A stretch of 64,000 nucleotides of DNA from Flavobacteriaceae bacterium (GTDB lineage Bacteria > Bacteroidota > Bacteroidia > Flavobacteriales > Flavobacteriaceae), in assembly GCA_018401115.1 (NCBI GenBank), contig JAGYKX010000005.1, positions 868,001 to 932,000 on the forward strand, given 5' to 3'. Made by a program: the position numbers and the translations under genes. The notes under the pieces were generated by a model. The model did not search any database. It was not told the origin of the DNA and saw only the letters and a list, made by a program, of their open reading frames with translations. Shown piece after piece: positions 4,533 through 26,140 of the stretch. The stretch's first letter is position 1, and every line of letters starts with the position of its first letter.

Positions 4533-5560
4533 AAAATGTGTTTCTCTCTTTCTACAAAATCGTGAGATACAGGGAGGTAAAACAATTGAGGTATAGCTGC
4601 ACTTAACTTCACAAAATCCTTGTGAGTACAAATGATTTTTTGATATTTTTTTAATGACTCTATTTCGTTTCTGGAGAAATAATGATGGTCTGCATACCTT
4701 AAATGATGTATTATTATGCTTTGTTTTTCTAAAAAACTAACCAATGGTTCTGGATTAGCAATTGCGGTAACCAATGTAATTTCCTGACCCTTCAGATTAT
4801 TTAAAGAAATGGACTTATTCAATCCAATGAGGACATTGTCATATTTTAAGTGACTGAAAAAAGCTGGCTGATTTGGCATAAGATTAAGGCCTGAAACAAA
4901 AGACGCTTTCTTGGTGGCGTCTAAATGATAGGGAGATTTAGTGACCACGACAATATGGGCTTTTTTGACCCTTAATTGATGATCTCTCAATGTGCCAGCT
5001 GGCAAATAAAAATCCTTAAAGTAAGGTTTATTGTATGTGGTGAGTAAAATATTAAACTGAGCTTTAATGGCCCGATGTTGAAATGCGTCGTCTAAAAGCA
5101 CTAAATCAAGAGCGGATTGACTCCCTGAATTTTGAGTTTCAAACAAGTTCTCTTTTCCACAAAATCCTTGAGTATAGTTCGATTCTAAATAAGCCATTGC
5201 TGCTACTCTAGAAGCACAAACAACCATCCTAATTTGAGGAAATGAATTGTAAAGTTGAAAGGCTTCGTCTCCTATTTCAAACGCATTAGATGCTGCATTA
5301 GCCTCAATTAAGCCACGTGACTTTCTTCCATAACCCCTACTTACTACTGCAATTTGCAAGCCCTTGCTTAAGTAGTATTCAATTAAAAGCGCAATCATTG
5401 GTGTTTTTCCTGTACCTCCCAAACTAAGGTTGCCCACGCAAATTGTGGGGGTATTGAAGCTTTCACTTCTAAATAAACCGAGATCATAAAAAAGATGTCT
5501 AAGCCTAAGCACCCATGCATAGAGAAGCGATAAAGGCCATAAAAGCATACTGATCTTCAT
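4508..5560 (-). CDS. lpxK: Tetraacyldisaccharide 4'-kinase
   Basis: LpxK phosphorylates the 4' position of the lipid A disaccharide at the inner membrane. An N-terminal hydrophobic segment (about 5-20) fits a membrane-anchoring helix. The P-loop is VGNLSLGGTGKTP (42-54), and the LLDDAFQHR motif, typical of the family, lies in the middle. The 350-aa length is normal. The gene is alone on the minus strand: its 3' end overlaps the histidine kinase and its 5' end faces the Nif3-like gene across 50 bp. Confidence 0.95.
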   Translation of the reverse strand: MKISMLLWPLSLLYAWVLRLRHLFYDLGLFRSESFNTPTICVGNLSLGGTGKTPMIALLIEYYLSKGLQIAVVSRGYGRKSRGLIEANAASNAFEIGDEAFQLYNSFPQIRMVVCASRVAAMAYLESNYTQGFCGKENLFETQNSGSQSALDLVLLDDAFQHRAIKAQFNILLTTYNKPYFKDFYLPAGTLRDHQLRVKKAHIVVVTKSPYHLDATKKASFVSGLNLMPNQPAFFSHLKYDNVLIGLNKSISLNNLKGQEITLVTAIANPEPLVSFLEKQSIIIHHLRYADHHYFSRNEIESLKKYQKIICTHKDFVKLSAAIPQLFYLPVSHDFVEREKHIFYKALPEL

Positions 5561-18841: not shown

Positions 18842-19672
18842 TTAGTCTTCCAACAGCACTTTATTATTCCTAATATAGGCCTCACTTTTTTCTTTCAAGA
18901 ACTCCCAGATCCTAAGCAAGTCTTGTGATTTAGCCAAGGACAAAAATTGTTCATCTATTTCACAATAATAGAAAAAATCTGAAAGCTTTTCTTCCCTTAT
19001 TCCCAACTTGTTAATATATAAGCTATCTGGAAAAAAAGTTCTCATTTGCTCTGAAAGTATATAGCGTTTGTCTCTGGCTACACGCTTTTTTAGCATTTTA
19101 GTTCGGCCTGTAATTTCATTAATAATAGGATTAAATGGCAATGTAAGTAACATACTCACATTAAATTTAGGCATAGCTGCCTCTCTGAGTAGTCGCTCGC
19201 TTTGCATAAGTGGCTTTACATTTGCATTTGGCAAACCGAGAGTGCTGGCGGTAACTACTTCTTGTGGCCCTAAAGAATTTGCATCTCTAGATAAATCACC
19301 ACTTAAATTATAGGGCATAAGGACTATTCCTTGAAGCTCTGTAATCTTTTCTTCCAAAGGAATATAAACCAACTGCTGTTCCAAATGAGCTTTGGTGACC
19401 ACAAAAATCTTTTTTTTAAAGGACACTCCAGAAAGTAATAAACTGTCTTGAGCTAAGGCTCTGATCTCAAAAAAACCGGCATCGTCCGTAATTGTTGCGT
19501 AACCCCTTGTAGTATTTTGTACAGAAATACCGCCAATATCTTCTGCTGTAGAAGCCACCCTTGCTTTAAAATTATCAGGATAAAAAAAAGATTGTCCATG
19601 CACCAAAGTGGCACACAAAAAAAGGATTAAAAAACAACAAAAATGCGTGTATGTTAGCACATTAGACCTCAA
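18842..19672 (-). CDS. Secreted protein with carboxypeptidase-D-like regulatory domain (paralogue A)
   Basis: A signal peptide (about 1-26, ending LVHGQS) is followed by a carboxypeptidase-D regulatory-like beta sandwich (about 30-120: GGISVQNTTRGYATITDDAGFFEI), then a helical, uncharacterised part with LPFNPIINEITGRTKMLKKR. It has no TonB-dependent barrel. It resembles the next gene upstream in layout (same N-domain, similar end DLLRIWEFLKEKSEAY), which suggests an old tandem duplication. The N-domain type is common as a periplasmic adhesion or plug module; a function cannot be given. Confidence 0.78.
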   Translation of the reverse strand: MRSNVLTYTHFCCFLILFLCATLVHGQSFFYPDNFKARVASTAEDIGGISVQNTTRGYATITDDAGFFEIRALAQDSLLLSGVSFKKKIFVVTKAHLEQQLVYIPLEEKITELQGIVLMPYNLSGDLSRDANSLGPQEVVTASTLGLPNANVKPLMQSERLLREAAMPKFNVSMLLTLPFNPIINEITGRTKMLKKRVARDKRYILSEQMRTFFPDSLYINKLGIREEKLSDFFYYCEIDEQFLSLAKSQDLLRIWEFLKEKSEAYIRNNKVLLED

Positions 19673-19717
19673 GAAACTCTTTTGTAATAATATGAATCCA
19701 ACACTATACTCATAGCA

Positions 19718-20461
19718 CTACTCTTTGGAGCTGTCAATGAAATCCCTACTCTGATTAACTAAAAAATCAATCAGTTGAAACTCATTTTTTCTCTTAAGTA
19801 AATTCTGTGGGCTAACCTTGCTGTCTAAATAGTAAAGAAATGGTTCTATTTGTTCTGGAGATAACTTGAGATCTTCAATAAAAAAACGGTCTTCATAAAT
19901 TACCCTTAATGCTTCTGACATTTTTAAAACTGGCACAGCATTATTATTAGCATCTTTAGACTGAAATAACAATTTAAAAATATTAACAAAATTTAAACCG
20001 TTTTGCATACCCTTCACAGCCCCTGCTTCTGCAATATTATCTACTTCAGTACTGCGATCTATCTCATAATCATAGCCCTTGAACTTTTCACTCTTTAAGG
20101 CCAAAAATTTCTCCGTATTCTCTGGACCTACTACAACCTCTTCTAAAGCAGTTACTTTCTCCTCAACAGCAACTACCAGTCGCCTGTTTTCCAAAATTTC
20201 TGCAGTGATCAATACCGCAGTGATTTTATAATTGACCGCTGTAAAAACCAATTCGTCCCCTTCAGCTACTTCAATTTCAAAAGAGCCCTCCTGGTCTGTA
20301 ATAGTTGCTAAACCAGCAGTGGTATTCAACACGTTTTCATTGACCACATTACTCCCCCTATACATTACCTTACCCTTAAGTGGCACCCTATCTTGAGACC
20401 AGAGACTCAAGGAGATTAAAAGTAAAAAAGAGCACAACAAATAAGCCTTTTTTAGTATCAT
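19718..20461 (-). CDS. Secreted protein with carboxypeptidase-D-like regulatory domain (paralogue B)
   Basis: The 247-residue protein has a signal peptide (about 1-22), then a carboxypeptidase-D-like domain (LKGKVMYRGSNVVNENVLNTT to ATITDQEGSFEI, about 28-65) and an EKVTALEEVVVG segment as in TonB-linked outer membrane proteins, but no barrel follows. The C-terminal helical part ends with LIDFLVNQSRDFIDSS. It shares architecture with the gene 45 bp downstream. It faces pepE across a short divergent region. Confidence 0.78.
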   Translation of the reverse strand: MILKKAYLLCSFLLLISLSLWSQDRVPLKGKVMYRGSNVVNENVLNTTAGLATITDQEGSFEIEVAEGDELVFTAVNYKITAVLITAEILENRRLVVAVEEKVTALEEVVVGPENTEKFLALKSEKFKGYDYEIDRSTEVDNIAEAGAVKGMQNGLNFVNIFKLLFQSKDANNNAVPVLKMSEALRVIYEDRFFIEDLKLSPEQIEPFLYYLDSKVSPQNLLKRKNEFQLIDFLVNQSRDFIDSSKE

Positions 20462-20584
20462 AGATCAAAATATTTCATGCCACAGACATGGATTAATAGC
20501 TTTTGTAATATAAAGAAAACCCATCTTAGTTAGAAATAAAAAAATAGGATGGCCAAACTTTTGTTAATTTGCAAAAAAATAGTC

Positions 20585-21292
20585 GTGAAACATCTTATAC
20601 TCGCCAGTACCAGCACATTACCCGATGAAAAGTATTTGGCTTATTTACTTCCTGAGCTTGAAACTTTTTTTAAAAATGTCACTACCATCACTTTTATTCC
20701 ATACGCTAGACCAAATGGAATTAGTCACGACCATTACACCAGACACGTGACTCAAGCGTTTTCCAAAATAGGAAAAAAAGTAATAGGGCTTCACAAATAC
20801 AAAGACCCTATTGAAGGGATCTCCAAGGCAGAAGCAATTTTTACTGGAGGAGGAAATACCTTTGTCTTGGTAAAAGCCTTATACGACTTAGGCATTATTT
20901 CTGCTTTAAAAAATGCACTTATAGAAGGTATACCTTATTTAGGTTGTAGCGCTGGAAGTAACATCATTGGACAAAGCATGCACACCACTAATGATATGCC
21001 CATAACTATGCCAAAAGATTTTAGAACTATTGGTCTCATCCCTTATAATATTAACGCACATTATCTAGATCCAATACCACATTTAAAGCACAATGGAGAG
21101 AGTAGAGAAACTAGGATAAAGGAATTCCACACCTATCACGACACCGACGTTATTGGACTTCGGGAAGGGAGTTATTTAGAGGTGATTCATCAGGATATAT
21201 TCCTAAGAGGTCCCCATACAGCTCGATTATTTCAAAAAAACCATGAAGCTACAGAAGTGTATCAAATAGAGCGCAAAGCAATCGATTTATAA
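20585..21292 (+). CDS. pepE: Dipeptidase E (peptidase S51)
   Basis: PepE cleaves dipeptides with N-terminal aspartate (alpha-aspartyl dipeptidase). The nucleophile is Ser122 in GCSAGSN and the catalytic histidine His159 in INAHYLD; the LTGGG-like turn is FTGGGNTF at 87-94. I chose GTG at 20585 (235 aa, family length) because an ATG at 20549 precedes a likely -7 element TTAATTTG at 20564-20571 and adds a non-conserved leader. The gene is single and diverges from the carboxypeptidase-D-like genes. Confidence 0.88.
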   Translation: MKHLILASTSTLPDEKYLAYLLPELETFFKNVTTITFIPYARPNGISHDHYTRHVTQAFSKIGKKVIGLHKYKDPIEGISKAEAIFTGGGNTFVLVKALYDLGIISALKNALIEGIPYLGCSAGSNIIGQSMHTTNDMPITMPKDFRTIGLIPYNINAHYLDPIPHLKHNGESRETRIKEFHTYHDTDVIGLREGSYLEVIHQDIFLRGPHTARLFQKNHEATEVYQIERKAIDL

Positions 21293-21465
21293 ACACTTCT
21301 AATACACTTAAACACCTATTAAAGTCTTTTAAAAGAACTGACTTAAAAACCAGGCGTTTTAGTCAAAAAATACTCATTTCGGGACATTAACAGATAAAAA
21401 GACCCACTTTATCTTATTTTCTGATATTACAATCAATTGGATTGTACCTTATAGAAAAGCGAAAA

Positions 21466-22827
21466 ATGAAGTCTTTATCTTTTTTAGGTTTAACACTACT
21501 ATTTTCCTCTATTTCCCTAGCCCAGGTAAAAATAGGAGGAGATCCTGAAACGATTCATCCCCAATCACTTTTAGAATTACAAAGCCAGACAAAAGCATTG
21601 ATCTTAACGGTTGTCACAGACAAGGAAATGCTGTCTATTAGGCCTCTTAGCGGCGCCTTAGTGTATAATATTGATCAAAACTGCGTCTTTTACTACCACC
21701 AAAGGTGGATGCCCCTATGCGAGTTCAACCCTCCTACAACACCCACTCCTGCAAGCTTCCAAAACATCTCAGAAAACAATTTTTTATTTACAAGTAGTAA
21801 CGGAGAACAAACACTTATTGAGGTACCCCCAATAAATCACCAACATGAAAATATTTCAACAGCTATTTTGAGCCATACGCATGAAAACGAAAACTTCGCA
21901 TTAAACAATCACAGTCATGAAACCCAAGACTTTGCATTAATAGATCATACCCATGATTTTCCGCTGACAACAACGGCTTCTCACACCCATGACTTTCCGC
22001 TGACAACAACGGCTTCTCACACCCATGACTTTCCGCTGACAACAACGGCTTCTCACACCCATGAAATACCGGACTATGCATTAATAGATCACTCACACAC
22101 CACATCCAATACAACTGACACAACAAACCCACACCAAAGACTAAACCCACTAGACAGCCTTCAATTAAACCAATTTAGACAGGGAACTTCAGGAAGTCTT
22201 TGGCACACTGAAAGTAATGGTGTGGTGGGTGAAATAAAAAATAAAAGCCAAAGCGTATTGGCTGTGTTTTGGGACCAAGACAAACAAAGACTTGGAATTG
22301 GCACTACAAATCCCACTAATAAATTACATGTCGCTGGAGAAATTAGAAGCCAAGGGTTCTCCAATTCAAACGGAAGTCAGAACGAGCCCAGTTATAGTTT
22401 TAAGTCAGATAGCAATACTGGTATGTTCAGGGCGGCAGCAGATCAGTTGGCTTTTAGTACAAAAGGGCAAGAAAGAATGAGGCTCACTAAGGAAGGTCAT
22501 TTGGCTATTGGAATATCTGCCACAAACTCCTTTTTAGAGGTCAATGGTGCACTTTCATTAAAAATCACTCAAAGTCATACTCAAACCACTACATTAAATG
22601 AAAACCACCATACCGTCATTTTGTATGAAGAGGTACAAACCATTGTTCTTCCTATAGCCTCAGAGAATAAAGGCAGGGTATATTGTTTAAAAAATTTAAG
22701 TGGTCATGGTCTTCACACACCTCTCCCATTTATAGGGTTAAGCTACGGCACTATTACTGAAAACATGATTCCAGAAGGAGTTACTTGGATTCAAAGCGAC
22801 GGAGAAAACTGGCAGCAAATTAGGTGA
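21466..22827 (+). CDS. Secreted tail-fibre-like protein with eight HxH repeats
   Basis: The start is taken as the ATG at 21466 (453 aa), which gives a clean signal peptide ending LAQ. The order is: N-terminal domain (about 20-95) with Cys residues; a repeat region (124-211) with eight H-x-H motifs (NHQH, SHTH, NHSH, DHTH, SHTH three times, DHSH) exactly 12 residues apart; then RLGIGTTNPTNKLHVAGE and NTGMFRAAADQLAFSTKG, typical of phage tail fibres and bacterial trimeric surface fibres; then a beta-rich C-domain. HxH motifs in T4 gp37 bind iron along the axis of a trimer. There is no intramolecular chaperone (S74) domain. Function and true trimeric state are inference. Confidence 0.75.
   Translation: MKSLSFLGLTLLFSSISLAQVKIGGDPETIHPQSLLELQSQTKALILTVVTDKEMLSIRPLSGALVYNIDQNCVFYYHQRWMPLCEFNPPTTPTPASFQNISENNFLFTSSNGEQTLIEVPPINHQHENISTAILSHTHENENFALNNHSHETQDFALIDHTHDFPLTTTASHTHDFPLTTTASHTHDFPLTTTASHTHEIPDYALIDHSHTTSNTTDTTNPHQRLNPLDSLQLNQFRQGTSGSLWHTESNGVVGEIKNKSQSVLAVFWDQDKQRLGIGTTNPTNKLHVAGEIRSQGFSNSNGSQNEPSYSFKSDSNTGMFRAAADQLAFSTKGQERMRLTKEGHLAIGISATNSFLEVNGALSLKITQSHTQTTTLNENHHTVILYEEVQTIVLPIASENKGRVYCLKNLSGHGLHTPLPFIGLSYGTITENMIPEGVTWIQSDGENWQQIR
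21946..22053 (+). repeat. Three tandem 36-bp in-frame repeats
   Basis: Three contiguous units at 21946-21981, 21982-22017 and 22018-22053 differ by only two C/T changes and encode HTHDFPLTTTAS. A partial fourth unit follows. Near-identity at synonymous sites points to recent slippage or duplication inside the fibre gene. Confidence 0.95.
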
Positions 22828-22884: not shown

Positions 22885-24087
22885 ATGTCACTGAGAAAAA
22901 ATATTTCAAAACCGACTATAATACTTGTGGTTGGTAGCTTTTTTTGCAACCAATTTTTAAGATCCCAAGAGCTTACTGTAATTCACGAATCAGTAAGTGT
23001 TGGCTCCCTGAATCCCTTTACTGTATTTGGCAGTAGACTAATCATTAAAAAATCTCTTAATGGCATTCATGGCATTCACTTTTCAGGACTTAAAAAGCAA
23101 ACCCTTGAATTAGTGTACCCTCAAGACATTCAAAATCTTTTCATAAACAAACCTAAAGGGATAGAAATCCTTGGTACGTTGCACCTAAGTAACACCCTTA
23201 TTTTAAATGGCCCTATAGTCGTGAGTGACCAAAAAGAAAGCCTTCTTGAACTTGGAGCAGACGCCCAGATAAAAAACAACCTACCCCCTCATGTAATTCA
23301 AGGTTGGGTTGGGATCAAAGACAAACATGAATTTATTTTTCCCATTGGATCAGGTGAAAAGTTCATGCCATTAGGAATGAATAGTGCAGAACCAATGGAA
23401 AATATTCCCTCTGGCATAAGCCTTCAAATAAAAACTACCGCTGGGCATGCCAACGTGAAAACAGGTAGCACCCATAGCACACCAAACTATCTTTCTAGGG
23501 CTGGAATTTCCGAGATGGATCCCAATCACTATTGGGAAATTCAATCCGAAACAGCACAATACATTCAGATTGAATGGCCCAGTGAACAAACATTTTATAA
23601 TGATCTAAACGTACAACACAAAGGAATAGCAGCCTGGAACAGAAGCACCCAAAACTGGCAGATACTCCCCCTAGAAATAGTACCAAGGGTAAGTAAAGTT
23701 GAGACAGAAACTGCCCTTAATACTAGGTCGCATAATTCCATAAAAACACTTCCTTTTAAAGGGAGTAATTTCTCTAAATGGGTGCTGTGCGATTGCCATA
23801 TGTACGATACAGAATACAAGGCTTTGGGTAATTTCATTCTTACTTTAAATGGAGACTCAATTAACAGTGAAATCAATCTTTCCCAATACCCAAAAAATAG
23901 GCTGGTTAATTTTCAGTTGTATGACCGCTATGGTATAATGCTGTTTAAATTAAAATCAATGAATCTAAAATCATTGAAAGATCTTATTAAAAACTACACA
24001 TACTATACAGGCACTTATTTTTATATAGTACATTTAAAGGCACCTAAGCAAATAGAACAAGGCTATATATATTTAATTAAACAGTAA
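22885..24087 (+). CDS. Secreted protein with CHU_C-like (T9SS type B) C-terminus
   Basis: The 400-residue protein has an N-terminal signal (about 10-28). A beta-rich middle contains LTLEL-like repeats and the segment GWVGIKDKHEFIFPIGSGEKFMPLG, a pattern common in large Bacteroidota surface proteins. The last 90 residues (NFQLYDRYGIMLFKL to GTYFYIVHLK and YIYLIKQ) resemble the CHU_C / gliding-motility C-terminal domain used for T9SS export, although the usual W-G of 'RWG' is Y-G. It begins 57 bp after the HxH-fibre gene and its stop abuts a GNAT gene. No catalytic residues are recognised. Confidence 0.68.
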   Translation: MSLRKNISKPTIILVVGSFFCNQFLRSQELTVIHESVSVGSLNPFTVFGSRLIIKKSLNGIHGIHFSGLKKQTLELVYPQDIQNLFINKPKGIEILGTLHLSNTLILNGPIVVSDQKESLLELGADAQIKNNLPPHVIQGWVGIKDKHEFIFPIGSGEKFMPLGMNSAEPMENIPSGISLQIKTTAGHANVKTGSTHSTPNYLSRAGISEMDPNHYWEIQSETAQYIQIEWPSEQTFYNDLNVQHKGIAAWNRSTQNWQILPLEIVPRVSKVETETALNTRSHNSIKTLPFKGSNFSKWVLCDCHMYDTEYKALGNFILTLNGDSINSEINLSQYPKNRLVNFQLYDRYGIMLFKLKSMNLKSLKDLIKNYTYYTGTYFYIVHLKAPKQIEQGYIYLIKQ

Positions 24088-24579
24088 ATGAAATTAGAAA
24101 TTAAGGTCATAAATGCCGCGCAAACCTATCCAGTGAGACATCCTGAACTCAGAGAAGGGAAACCCATTGAAAGTTGTGCATTTGATGGAGACCTAAATGA
24201 AAGCACCATTCACATAGGGGCATACTTAAATTTTGAGTTGGTGGGAGTAGCCAGTTTTATGAAACAGCCCACTTATTTTCCAGCTAAAAACGATGATTCT
24301 ATGATACAACACAAAAATAACATGCCTAGTCAACTTTGTGAAATGCAACTCAGAGGAATGGCTGTTTTAAAAAACCACCACAAAAAAGGAATCGGTGAAG
24401 CTATACTCAGTTATGGTGAGCAAAAACTAAAAGAGATTGGTTATCATGGTATTTGGATGAATGCAAGAATAAAAGCTGTGGGTTTTTATGAAAAATTAGG
24501 CTATAACATTCATGGAGATATATTTGAAATTCAAGGGGTGGGGGCTCACTTTAAAATGAGTAAAAAAATTGACAAATAG
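24088..24579 (+). CDS. GNAT family N-acetyltransferase
   Basis: The 163-residue protein has the GNAT fold: the acetyl-CoA loop appears as KNHHKKGIGEAILSYGEQ (about 95-112, R/Q-x-x-G-x-G/A variant), and the C-terminal NARIKAVGFYEKLGYNIHGD is the classic last strand. The acceptor is unknown. The ATG begins directly after the stop of the CHU_C-like gene, so it is probably translated from the same message; whether it has anything to do with that protein is unclear. Confidence 0.88.
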   Translation: MKLEIKVINAAQTYPVRHPELREGKPIESCAFDGDLNESTIHIGAYLNFELVGVASFMKQPTYFPAKNDDSMIQHKNNMPSQLCEMQLRGMAVLKNHHKKGIGEAILSYGEQKLKEIGYHGIWMNARIKAVGFYEKLGYNIHGDIFEIQGVGAHFKMSKKIDK

Positions 24580-24628: not shown

Positions 24629-26140
24629 ATGAATAAGAAGACGCTTTTAATGATTCTAGATGGTTGGGGGAAATCTCCAGACCCTAGTATCTCCGCCATT
24701 GATCAGGCCAATACGCCCTATATAGACCAATTGTATAAAGACTATCCAAACGCAAACCTCAGAACAGATGGAATGCATGTAGGATTGCCTGAAGGTCAAA
24801 TGGGAAATTCGGAAGTAGGACATATGAACTTAGGTGCTGGAAGAATTGTTTATCAGGATTTGGCTAAAATTAACTTAGCCATTAAAGAAAATAACCTCAA
24901 AGACCAAAAAGCGATCAAAAAAGCCTTTGCATTTGCCATAGAAAACAATAAGCCCATTCATTTTTTGGGCTTACTATCTGACGGGGGCGTTCACAGTCAT
25001 ACTAGTCATTTACGCAGTCTTATTTTAGCGGCTAAAAAGGCGGGTGTTCAGGAGAGTTATGTACATGCTTTTACAGATGGAAGAGATGTAGATCCTAAAA
25101 GTGGTAGCGCTTACACCAAAGCGCTTATAGATTTTTGCAAAGATACCCCAACCAAACTTGCGAGTCTAATAGGTAGGTATTACGCTATGGACAGAGATAA
25201 TAGATGGGAACGAGTAAAAAGAGCATATGATTTACTGGTTCACGGGGCTGGCACAAAAACAACTGATATGGTGGCTGCCATAGAATCGAGTTATGCAGCA
25301 GAAGTTACCGATGAATTCTTAGCACCAATTATCAATGAAAATGCAGGGCCAAACAGCACCATAAAAGAAGGTGACGTTGTCTTGTTTTTTAATTTTAGGA
25401 CAGATAGGGGTAGAGAACTTACCCAGGCCTTAAACCAACAAGACTTTCATGAGCAAAACATGAATGCACTAGATTTATACTATGTTACTATGACCAATTA
25501 CGACGCTTCTTTTAAAGACGTTCATGTCATTTTTGACAAGGATAATATTGTAGAAACTTTGGGCGAGGTAGTCGCTAATGCAGCTAAGAAGCAAATTAGG
25601 ATTGCAGAGACTGAAAAATACCCTCACGTCACCTTCTTCTTCAACGGCGGGAGAGAGACTCCTTTCGAAGGAGAAACGAGGTTATTATGCCCATCTCCTA
25701 AAGTAGCTACTTATGATTTACAACCAGAGATGAGTGCCTATGATATTAGAGACGCCATTGTTCCTGAATTAGAAAAGGCAAGTTCAGATTTTATTTGTTT
25801 AAATTTTGCCAATCCAGATATGGTAGGACATACTGGAAACATGCAAGCGGCCATAAAGGCATGTGAAGTAGTAGACAGCTGTGCGCAAACTGTGATTGAA
25901 GCAGCCAAAAAACAAGACTATTCTGTTTTGGTCATTGCAGATCATGGAAACTGTGATACCATGAGAAATCCTGATGGTTCACCAAATACTGCACACACCA
26001 CCAATCCAGTACCATTCATACTGGTGGACCAAGACATTAAAAAAGTATCTAATGGTGTTTTAGGAGACATTGCACCCACCATATTGGCGCTAATGGGTAT
26101 TCCACAACCCTCAGTTATGACAGGGAAAAGTCTTTTATAA
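24629..26140 (+). CDS. gpmI: 2,3-bisphosphoglycerate-independent phosphoglycerate mutase
   Basis: GpmI interconverts 3- and 2-phosphoglycerate using two Mn2+ ions and a phosphoserine intermediate. Asp11 (LMILDGWG) and Ser61 (GQMGNSEVGHMNLGAGR) are the metal ligand and nucleophile; the later metal motifs LNFANPDMVGHTG and VIADHGNCD are intact. The 503-aa length is standard. map follows after 21 bp. Confidence 0.97.
   Translation: MNKKTLLMILDGWGKSPDPSISAIDQANTPYIDQLYKDYPNANLRTDGMHVGLPEGQMGNSEVGHMNLGAGRIVYQDLAKINLAIKENNLKDQKAIKKAFAFAIENNKPIHFLGLLSDGGVHSHTSHLRSLILAAKKAGVQESYVHAFTDGRDVDPKSGSAYTKALIDFCKDTPTKLASLIGRYYAMDRDNRWERVKRAYDLLVHGAGTKTTDMVAAIESSYAAEVTDEFLAPIINENAGPNSTIKEGDVVLFFNFRTDRGRELTQALNQQDFHEQNMNALDLYYVTMTNYDASFKDVHVIFDKDNIVETLGEVVANAAKKQIRIAETEKYPHVTFFFNGGRETPFEGETRLLCPSPKVATYDLQPEMSAYDIRDAIVPELEKASSDFICLNFANPDMVGHTGNMQAAIKACEVVDSCAQTVIEAAKKQDYSVLVIADHGNCDTMRNPDGSPNTAHTTNPVPFILVDQDIKKVSNGVLGDIAPTILALMGIPQPSVMTGKSLL

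Follow-up and report, generated by a model that had tools for sequence, protein, structure and literature searches.

A putative secreted fibre with an H-x-H array, and its CHU_C partner gene, in the Flavobacteriaceae

Described fibres and the layout of the window protein

Metal ions that staple a fibre together along its axis are documented in phage and pyocin fibres (PMC6116203, in the text available), and iron sites made from H-x-H motifs have been described, in the accessible parts of these reports, in phage and tailocin fibres (PMC6116203; PMC11705849). The shaft of the R-type pyocin fibre and the spikes of phages are trimeric, with octahedral iron sites whose six histidines come from three H-x-H motifs; they hold one site and not a ladder of sites and are part of a contractile tail (available text of PMC6116203), unlike the fibre of the window (the whole stretch of 64,000 nucleotides of a Flavobacteriaceae genome that was analysed here). 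The tail fibre of Alteromonas phage R22Y is marine and is predicted to hold iron at several H-x-H motifs, with a spacing of 22 residues for four of these sites, but it is a virion protein with a pitch other than that of the window fibre, and its iron was predicted by docking only, according to the accessible text (PMC11705849). The tip of T4 gp37 (2XGF) and related phage fibres carry runs of H-x-H, several of them at a 12-residue pitch like that of the window. These gp37-type arrays mostly form two blocks around ~40 residues, and follow a collar domain in ZRG1 and POR1, whereas the window protein has one block, no collar hit, another head and a signal peptide, and scans of the proteins flanking it gave no phage structural genes. 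The structure of gp37 was reportedly described by Bartual in 2010. A tail-fibre tip from the same family as the window, C24 of Bizionia argentinensis (Flavobacteriaceae), is said to have been studied by Pellizza et al. in 2020. C24 is described as resembling the fibre tip of T4; unlike the window fibre, it is a prophage protein (accessible text of PMC11821841).

Chromosomal fibres are represented by the mosaic adhesive trimer (MAT) fibres that Caulton et al. (2024; PMC10769870) described from Bdellovibrio bacteriovorus and which, as far as the accessible text of that paper goes, appear to have in common with the window fibre a chromosomal gene, a signal peptide, a conserved N-terminal domain, a shaft resembling those of phage fibres, G-x3-P-x3-L capping loops and a variable tip. 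Their beta-rich N-terminal domain is ~130 aa long against ~75 aa in the window fibre, the two being likened by description, and they are typically about 1,000 aa in size against 453 aa (PMC10769870, accessible text). The consensus of the capping loops of the MAT beta-helix is given there as V-G-G/N-pi-x-x-P-x-x-x-L, and the tip is an S74 chaperone or another adhesive domain, with some MATs lacking S74. The window fibre differs in its H-x-H stalk and its T9SS-tagged partner; HxH, metal and histidine are not words of the accessible MAT text, although a figure legend does mention axial ions in the tip of Bd2133 (PMC10769870).

The fibre gene (21466..22827; all window features given here lie on the plus strand) is an open reading frame of 453 aa with an ATG start, and four further genus genomes hold homologues. 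The earliest possible start in the open reading frame listing is a TTG at 21442, and the ATG at 21466 is taken as the start because the MKSL N-terminus that it gives recurs in three of the genus homologues. It begins with a Sec-type signal peptide (MKSLSFLGLTLLFSSISLA; 21466..21522), read by eye and without a lipobox cysteine. The N-terminal domain that follows (aa 19-92; 21520..21741) is delineated by 78 distinct N-domain sequences, an AF2 model and weak fold matches. The model, of ~75 aa and mostly beta strands, has a mean pLDDT of 92.4, and the alignment holds 73 rows (the window and 72 of the 78, six short or weak sequences being dropped). Fold matches are weak (Z of at most 4.4; best Foldseek E of 0.11), and the upper ones are mostly to trimeric proteins, namely Mtd, the trimerisation domains of collagen XV/XVIII, CBA120 tailspikes and phage hyaluronidases; ribosome-associated factor Y and PI3K, which are unrelated folds, stand lower. 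A PDB sequence search with the N-domain profile gave nothing better than E=1.

The C-terminal fibre region (aa 268-365; 22267..22560) resembles the shafts of phage tail fibres by PHROG, PDB and motif evidence. PHROG tail-fibre profiles match aa 238-375 at 6.7e-12 to 2.8e-4, and the sole PDB match of the whole fibre up to E=10 is a weak one to 8ond (bd2133; E=0.0031). Within the region, a G-x3-P-x3-L loop (aa 279-287; 22300-22326), contained in LGIGTTNPTNKL, which ends at aa 287, fits the core of the MAT consensus. The comparison of the LSUCC0859 homologue with the MAT structure 8ojn was not significant (E=0.88). A Pfam search of the fibre up to E=10 returned no family, hence no S74, and recognised no T9SS signal in the fibre itself; NCBIfam, searched up to E=1, offered no name for it. 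The C-terminal head (aa 362-453; 22549..22824) was delimited by AF2 pLDDT, which in blocks of ten residues is 51-82 over aa 371-453 and 43 for aa 361-370, and by VIA-align, where it resembles the tailspike 24qj (Z 8.0, a level that the tool calls common) and the spike 9ny6 (Z 7.2), with the non-phage 4dny and 6o38 (both Z 6.6) in the same ranking. The full-length AF2 monomer, made from five sequences, has a mean pLDDT of 39.3 and only 22-26 over the array, where it is uninformative; in a BFVD fold search with this monomer the hits, to tail-fibre proteins and to phage proteins that are uncharacterised, had low TM scores and were not used. The layout supports the sequence-only reading in its view of a secreted, fibre-like protein.

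The H-x-H array and its histidines

The array (21835..22101), visible directly in the sequence, consists of eight H-x-H motifs at residues 125, 137, 149, 161, 173, 185, 197 and 209 (codons 21838-22098), in the order NHQH, SHTH, NHSH, DHTH, SHTH three times and DHSH. Every step is 12 residues, and a position count (aa 125-209 of 453) confirms the exact pitch claimed earlier for the eight motifs. Shuffling the whole protein gave eight H-x-H in 0 of 20,000 trials and seven in 4 of 20,000, while 200,000 shuffles restricted to the array, with its 16 His in 96 aa, gave a best in-phase count of four; a chance origin of the array was rejected on the two sets of shuffles. The fibre is alone among the 73 stop-to-stop frames of at least 100 aa in the window in having at least three H-x-H. 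Searched by itself against the PDB up to E=10, the array matched no chain, and a literature search, covering titles and abstract openings among the matches listed, found no mention of such arrays for a bacterial fibre encoded in the chromosome.

Five of the 12 genomes of the genus, the window's own included, have a match to the fibre at E<=1e-5. The gene would thus be dispensable, as seven of the 12 are without it; these include G003 (99% complete) and G004 (98%), with some others incomplete. The homologues belong to Flavobacteria bacterium MS024-3C, Flavobacteriaceae bacterium LSUCC0859 (G011) and two metagenome genomes, the last three genomes being presumably of marine origin. MS024-3C is a marine single-cell genome (PMC2668756, accessible text). 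Motifs at pitch 12 number five in G010, five in G008 and six in G009, and the latter two have one extra HPH inside the N-domain. The LSUCC0859 homologue, which is 47% identical, has ten H-x-H at a pitch of 7-8, in two blocks of five that lie 29 residues apart, and its intervening residues are also changed. As read from these sequences, the conserved feature is H-x-H and not the pitch. The sequence-only reading had stressed a strict register and had named homologues without conserved H-x-H spacing as evidence against it; the LSUCC0859 homologue is of this kind, but it keeps the motif. The idea that a register of exactly 12 residues is what is conserved for function was rejected, on the pitch of 7-8 in this homologue and pitches of 9 and 14 in T4-type viral relatives.

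Inside the array, repeat analysis finds a recent 36-bp tandem duplication (21945..22064; 3.3 copies, 97% matches), and units 4, 5 and 6 are pairwise identical at 32-36 of 36 bases, so that the array does not stand for eight independent events. Such near-identity in DNA is what a low-complexity spacer grown by 36-bp tandem duplication would leave, its histidines having no metal role, and it accords with this account that at least three H-x-H occur in none of the 75 distinct frames with an N-domain from outside the genus, of which 20 are cut by locus ends, from which it follows that the fibre family does not need the array. The histidine codons tell against it. In 48 pairwise comparisons of repeat units from the four pitch-12 genomes, 36 His codons were identical, 12 synonymous and none non-synonymous, against 143, 26 and 71 in 240 comparisons of the other codons of the same units (Fisher, synonymous vs non-synonymous, p=8.6e-7, the pairs not being independent and the test somewhat circular, with units picked for holding H-x-H and paired partly by judgement). 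Two non-overlapping genome pairs, which still share a deep branch, gave non-synonymous changes in 0 of 5 His changes vs 31 of 40 elsewhere (p=0.0016). Synonymous changes without replacement imply that the His codons had time to diverge. Since, in addition, ten H-x-H are kept at a different spacing in the 47%-identical homologue, we regard a spacer of this kind as improbable.

Among 50,697 phage records, tblastn with the array as query matched six at E values up to 10 (two of them the same phage), with a best E of 0.009. In three of the five phages examined, ZRG1, FP_Lugh and POR1, H-x-H motifs stand in blocks at exact 12-residue steps in tail, tail-fibre or tail-collar proteins, the gaps between blocks being 40-42 in ZRG1 and FP_Lugh and 24, 27 and 40 in POR1; RobinSparkles has no frame with at least three H-x-H, and AG-345-F15 has steps of 9-11 with end steps of 15 and 18. 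The T4 gp37 iron tip 2xgf is hit by the ZRG1 region at E=8.8e-9, the only other hits of that region being two nanobody chains at E ~0.1, which are noise. A profile built jointly from phage arrays and arrays of the window type also hits 2xgf, at E=0.0022, a match that the phage rows and the HxH letters may carry. The AG-345-F15 array matched no PDB sequence. Pitch-12 runs, of up to seven plus six motifs, occur in L125 and L126, two of the 16 viral contigs that are related; of the others, T4-like contigs have pitches of 9 or of 14 and 9, L140 has one 12-step, and L127 falls below the four-motif threshold on the strand examined. Scans of viral contigs with the window array found no relative. The phage arrays mostly have two blocks ~40 residues apart (L041, L043, L125, L126). 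The likeness to gp37 drawn in the sequence-only reading is borne out to the extent that gp37-related fibres with H-x-H at a 12-residue pitch exist in ZRG1, FP_Lugh, POR1, L125 and L126, and by analogy the window array plausibly works like the gp37 needle, though it is not assigned to the gp37 family, having a single block, no hit to a collar and, taken by itself, no significant similarity. Marine virus AG-345-F15 (L045), an unannotated marine viral record, has a frame with twelve H-x-H.

The chromosomal locus and the partner gene

The locus is flanked on the left by a peptidase S51 gene (20549..21292) and on the right by a GNAT acetyltransferase gene (24088..24579) and the phosphoglycerate mutase gene gpmI (24629..26140), all three assigned by Pfam and conserved as flanks. 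Gene order is fixed in the window, G008, G009 and G011, running from M1 peptidase and DUF6702 through two CarboxypepD_reg-like genes, S51 and the fibre and CHU_C pair to GNAT and gpmI, and G010 has the same order from M1 peptidase to gpmI, split over two contigs. Matches to S51 and to GNAT are at most 50 bases apart in G002, G003, G004 and G005, from which the pair is cleanly absent. In G001 (L054, about 5084-5500) the fibre is gone and ~140 aa of the CHU_C C-terminus are left against S51, which, judged from the sequence, is probably a natural deletion of the fibre and most of the partner. G007 has none of the fibre-locus neighbours within 2.3 kb beside its gpmI (47% identical), and gpmI of G006 is in pieces on short contigs. 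The two adjacent CarboxypepD_reg-like proteins (window 18842-20461) are similar to each other, score below the curated Pfam cut-off and are kept with the fibre locus in the genus.

Single neighbours are shared with fibres of six other genera, in a search of short flanks with one flank each: a CarboxypepD_reg-like gene adjoins the fibre in G012, G022 and G029, GNAT comes directly after the fibre in G177 and after the partner in G402, and gpmI lies within 1 kb of the fibre in G093. A fixed locus in the genus, clean absences and neighbours recurring in other genera together favour an old chromosomal site with losses over a recent capture from a phage, which these sequence comparisons disfavour. 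The sequence-only reading had remarked that no phage genes surround the fibre, and no phage structural genes were found among the flanking proteins (12 scanned by Pfam, 11 of these also by PHROGs); a prophage context was rejected on these scans. Its suggestion of domestication, taken as a recent capture, is disfavoured, as the fibre and partner pair recurs in the family with shared neighbours.

A remnant or recently domesticated prophage tail fibre would account for the matches of the shaft to PHROG tail-fibre families and for the 16 phage records that match parts of aa 267-393. None of these records covers 80% of the protein, however, and the two viral contigs found with the five-row fibre alignment match aa 232-368 only. 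The signal peptide (read by eye), the flanking proteins scanned, which gave no phage structural gene, and the single flanking genes common to fibres of six other genera also argue against a prophage fibre, as do the matches of the five-row fibre profile in 103 of 397 Flavobacteriaceae genomes (E<=1e-10; many in longer frames) and the partner homologue after 38 of 50 fibres, and such an origin seems to us very improbable.

The partner gene (22885..24087; 400 aa) lies 57 bp downstream of the fibre gene. Its aa 318-397 match the CHU_C type IX secretion signal (PF13585; E=2.1e-8, 34.6 bits, cut-off 27), and it scores 22.4 bits against TIGR04131, under the cut-off of 35; with this C-terminal sorting domain its sequence identifies it as a T9SS type B cargo protein. 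The T9SS family sprA is over cut-off in the window's genome and in 11 of the 12 genus genomes, its own included. Sixty N-domain places were sampled from the matches listed, with N-domains counted by HMM, and together with earlier loci they gave the 78 distinct sequences, three of them from the genus. The 60 loci hold 64 N-domain frames, and dropping 14 with a cut 3' end left 50 fibres, which are not independent, several genomes contributing more than one; 1.6 kb downstream of each was examined, except for one fibre near the end of its contig, where the stretch was shorter. In 38 of the 50 the downstream stretch encodes, on the same strand, a homologue of the CHU_C protein of the window, 29 of them found with the window protein alone (E<=1e-5) and the rest after one iteration. 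The partner frame starts at once in 34 and after 520-745 bases in four, and the 34 complete partner frames span 376-418 codons from stop to stop (median 385). Another N-domain frame comes next in 2 of the 50, and neither in 10. As PF13585 is common in all 30 genomes searched, a nearby CHU_C gene is no evidence in itself; the homology of the adjacent protein to that of the window is. A literature search of titles and abstract openings found nothing on a fibre and CHU_C pair among the matches listed.

The pair recurs across the Flavobacteriaceae (window 22885-24087, L142-L190). At the partnerless loci L141, L159, L161 and L170 the next frame often has a secreted-like start, some with an N-domain-like ...GALIYN... 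(by eye), and these frames are perhaps further members of the cassette.

Proposed metal sites and surface display

The reading that we prefer, and consider probable with some reserve, is of a secreted, chromosomal, homotrimeric Flavobacteriaceae fibre with axial H-x-H metal sites, displayed together with a T9SS-tagged partner. It would run from the signal peptide through an N-terminal domain, either anchoring or trimerising, and an H-x-H stalk to a beta-rich, phage-fibre-like shaft and the C-terminal head. The H-x-H motifs of three chains would meet on the three-fold axis with one metal ion per six histidines, the metal being probably Fe(II) and possibly Zn. These sites would stiffen the short stalk and hold it in register, and its length may shift by gain or loss of 36-bp repeats. 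The T9SS-exported partner, given the pairing of the genes, might tether the fibre for display at the surface, where the probable role is adhesion to particles, algae or other cells.

This reading gains from the non-random array, the conserved His codons, the H-x-H kept in the distant homologue, the 12-pitch phage fibres, the ZRG1 and joint-profile matches to 2xgf, the trimer-like N-domain folds, the tailspike-like head, the CHU_C partner after 38 of 50 fibres and sprA. It is weakened by the lack of a PDB match to the array, a best phage match of only E=0.009, the single block, the weakness of the N-domain folds, the absence of the array outside the genus, the dispensable gene and the lack of a recognised T9SS signal on the fibre. 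The same conserved codons would also suit a secreted fibre in which the H-x-H stretch is a flexible linker that scavenges or buffers Zn, Cu, Ni or Fe and forms no trimeric metal sites on an axis. A loose chelator would tolerate a copy number of 5-8 at pitch 12 and a spacing of 7-8 in one homologue, and the monomer model is unstructured at the array, though uninformative. Such a linker has less to say of a register that stays at exactly 12 in four genomes despite the change in copy number, of the same pitch in fibres of phages that are akin to the gp37 tip, which bears iron, and of two other domains that both weakly resemble trimeric proteins, and we think it unlikely.

If the axial reading is true, bacteria build surface fibres of their own with the same metal-stapled construction. 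Going further, and only tentatively, a non-phage cellular fibre may have gained a gp37-like metal ladder of up to eight six-His sites, with an adjustable stalk and a dedicated T9SS partner, as the genus version of a widespread and apparently undescribed two-gene fibre system, possibly coupling adhesion to the availability of metal in the sea. The pair of fibre and T9SS partner, present in many genera of the family, is a testable candidate for the display of phage-like trimeric adhesins by Flavobacteriaceae.

A search of 397 family genomes with an array profile, of limited sensitivity since it missed the known pitch 7-8 array of G011, hit seven genomes at E<=0.1, the hit in the genome of the window being the only convincing one; the other six score 15.6-17.5 bits, and two of them have in-frame stops. 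Some N-domain fibre frames are very long, reaching 5385 aa in L096 (G405) and 3278 aa in L085 (G389).
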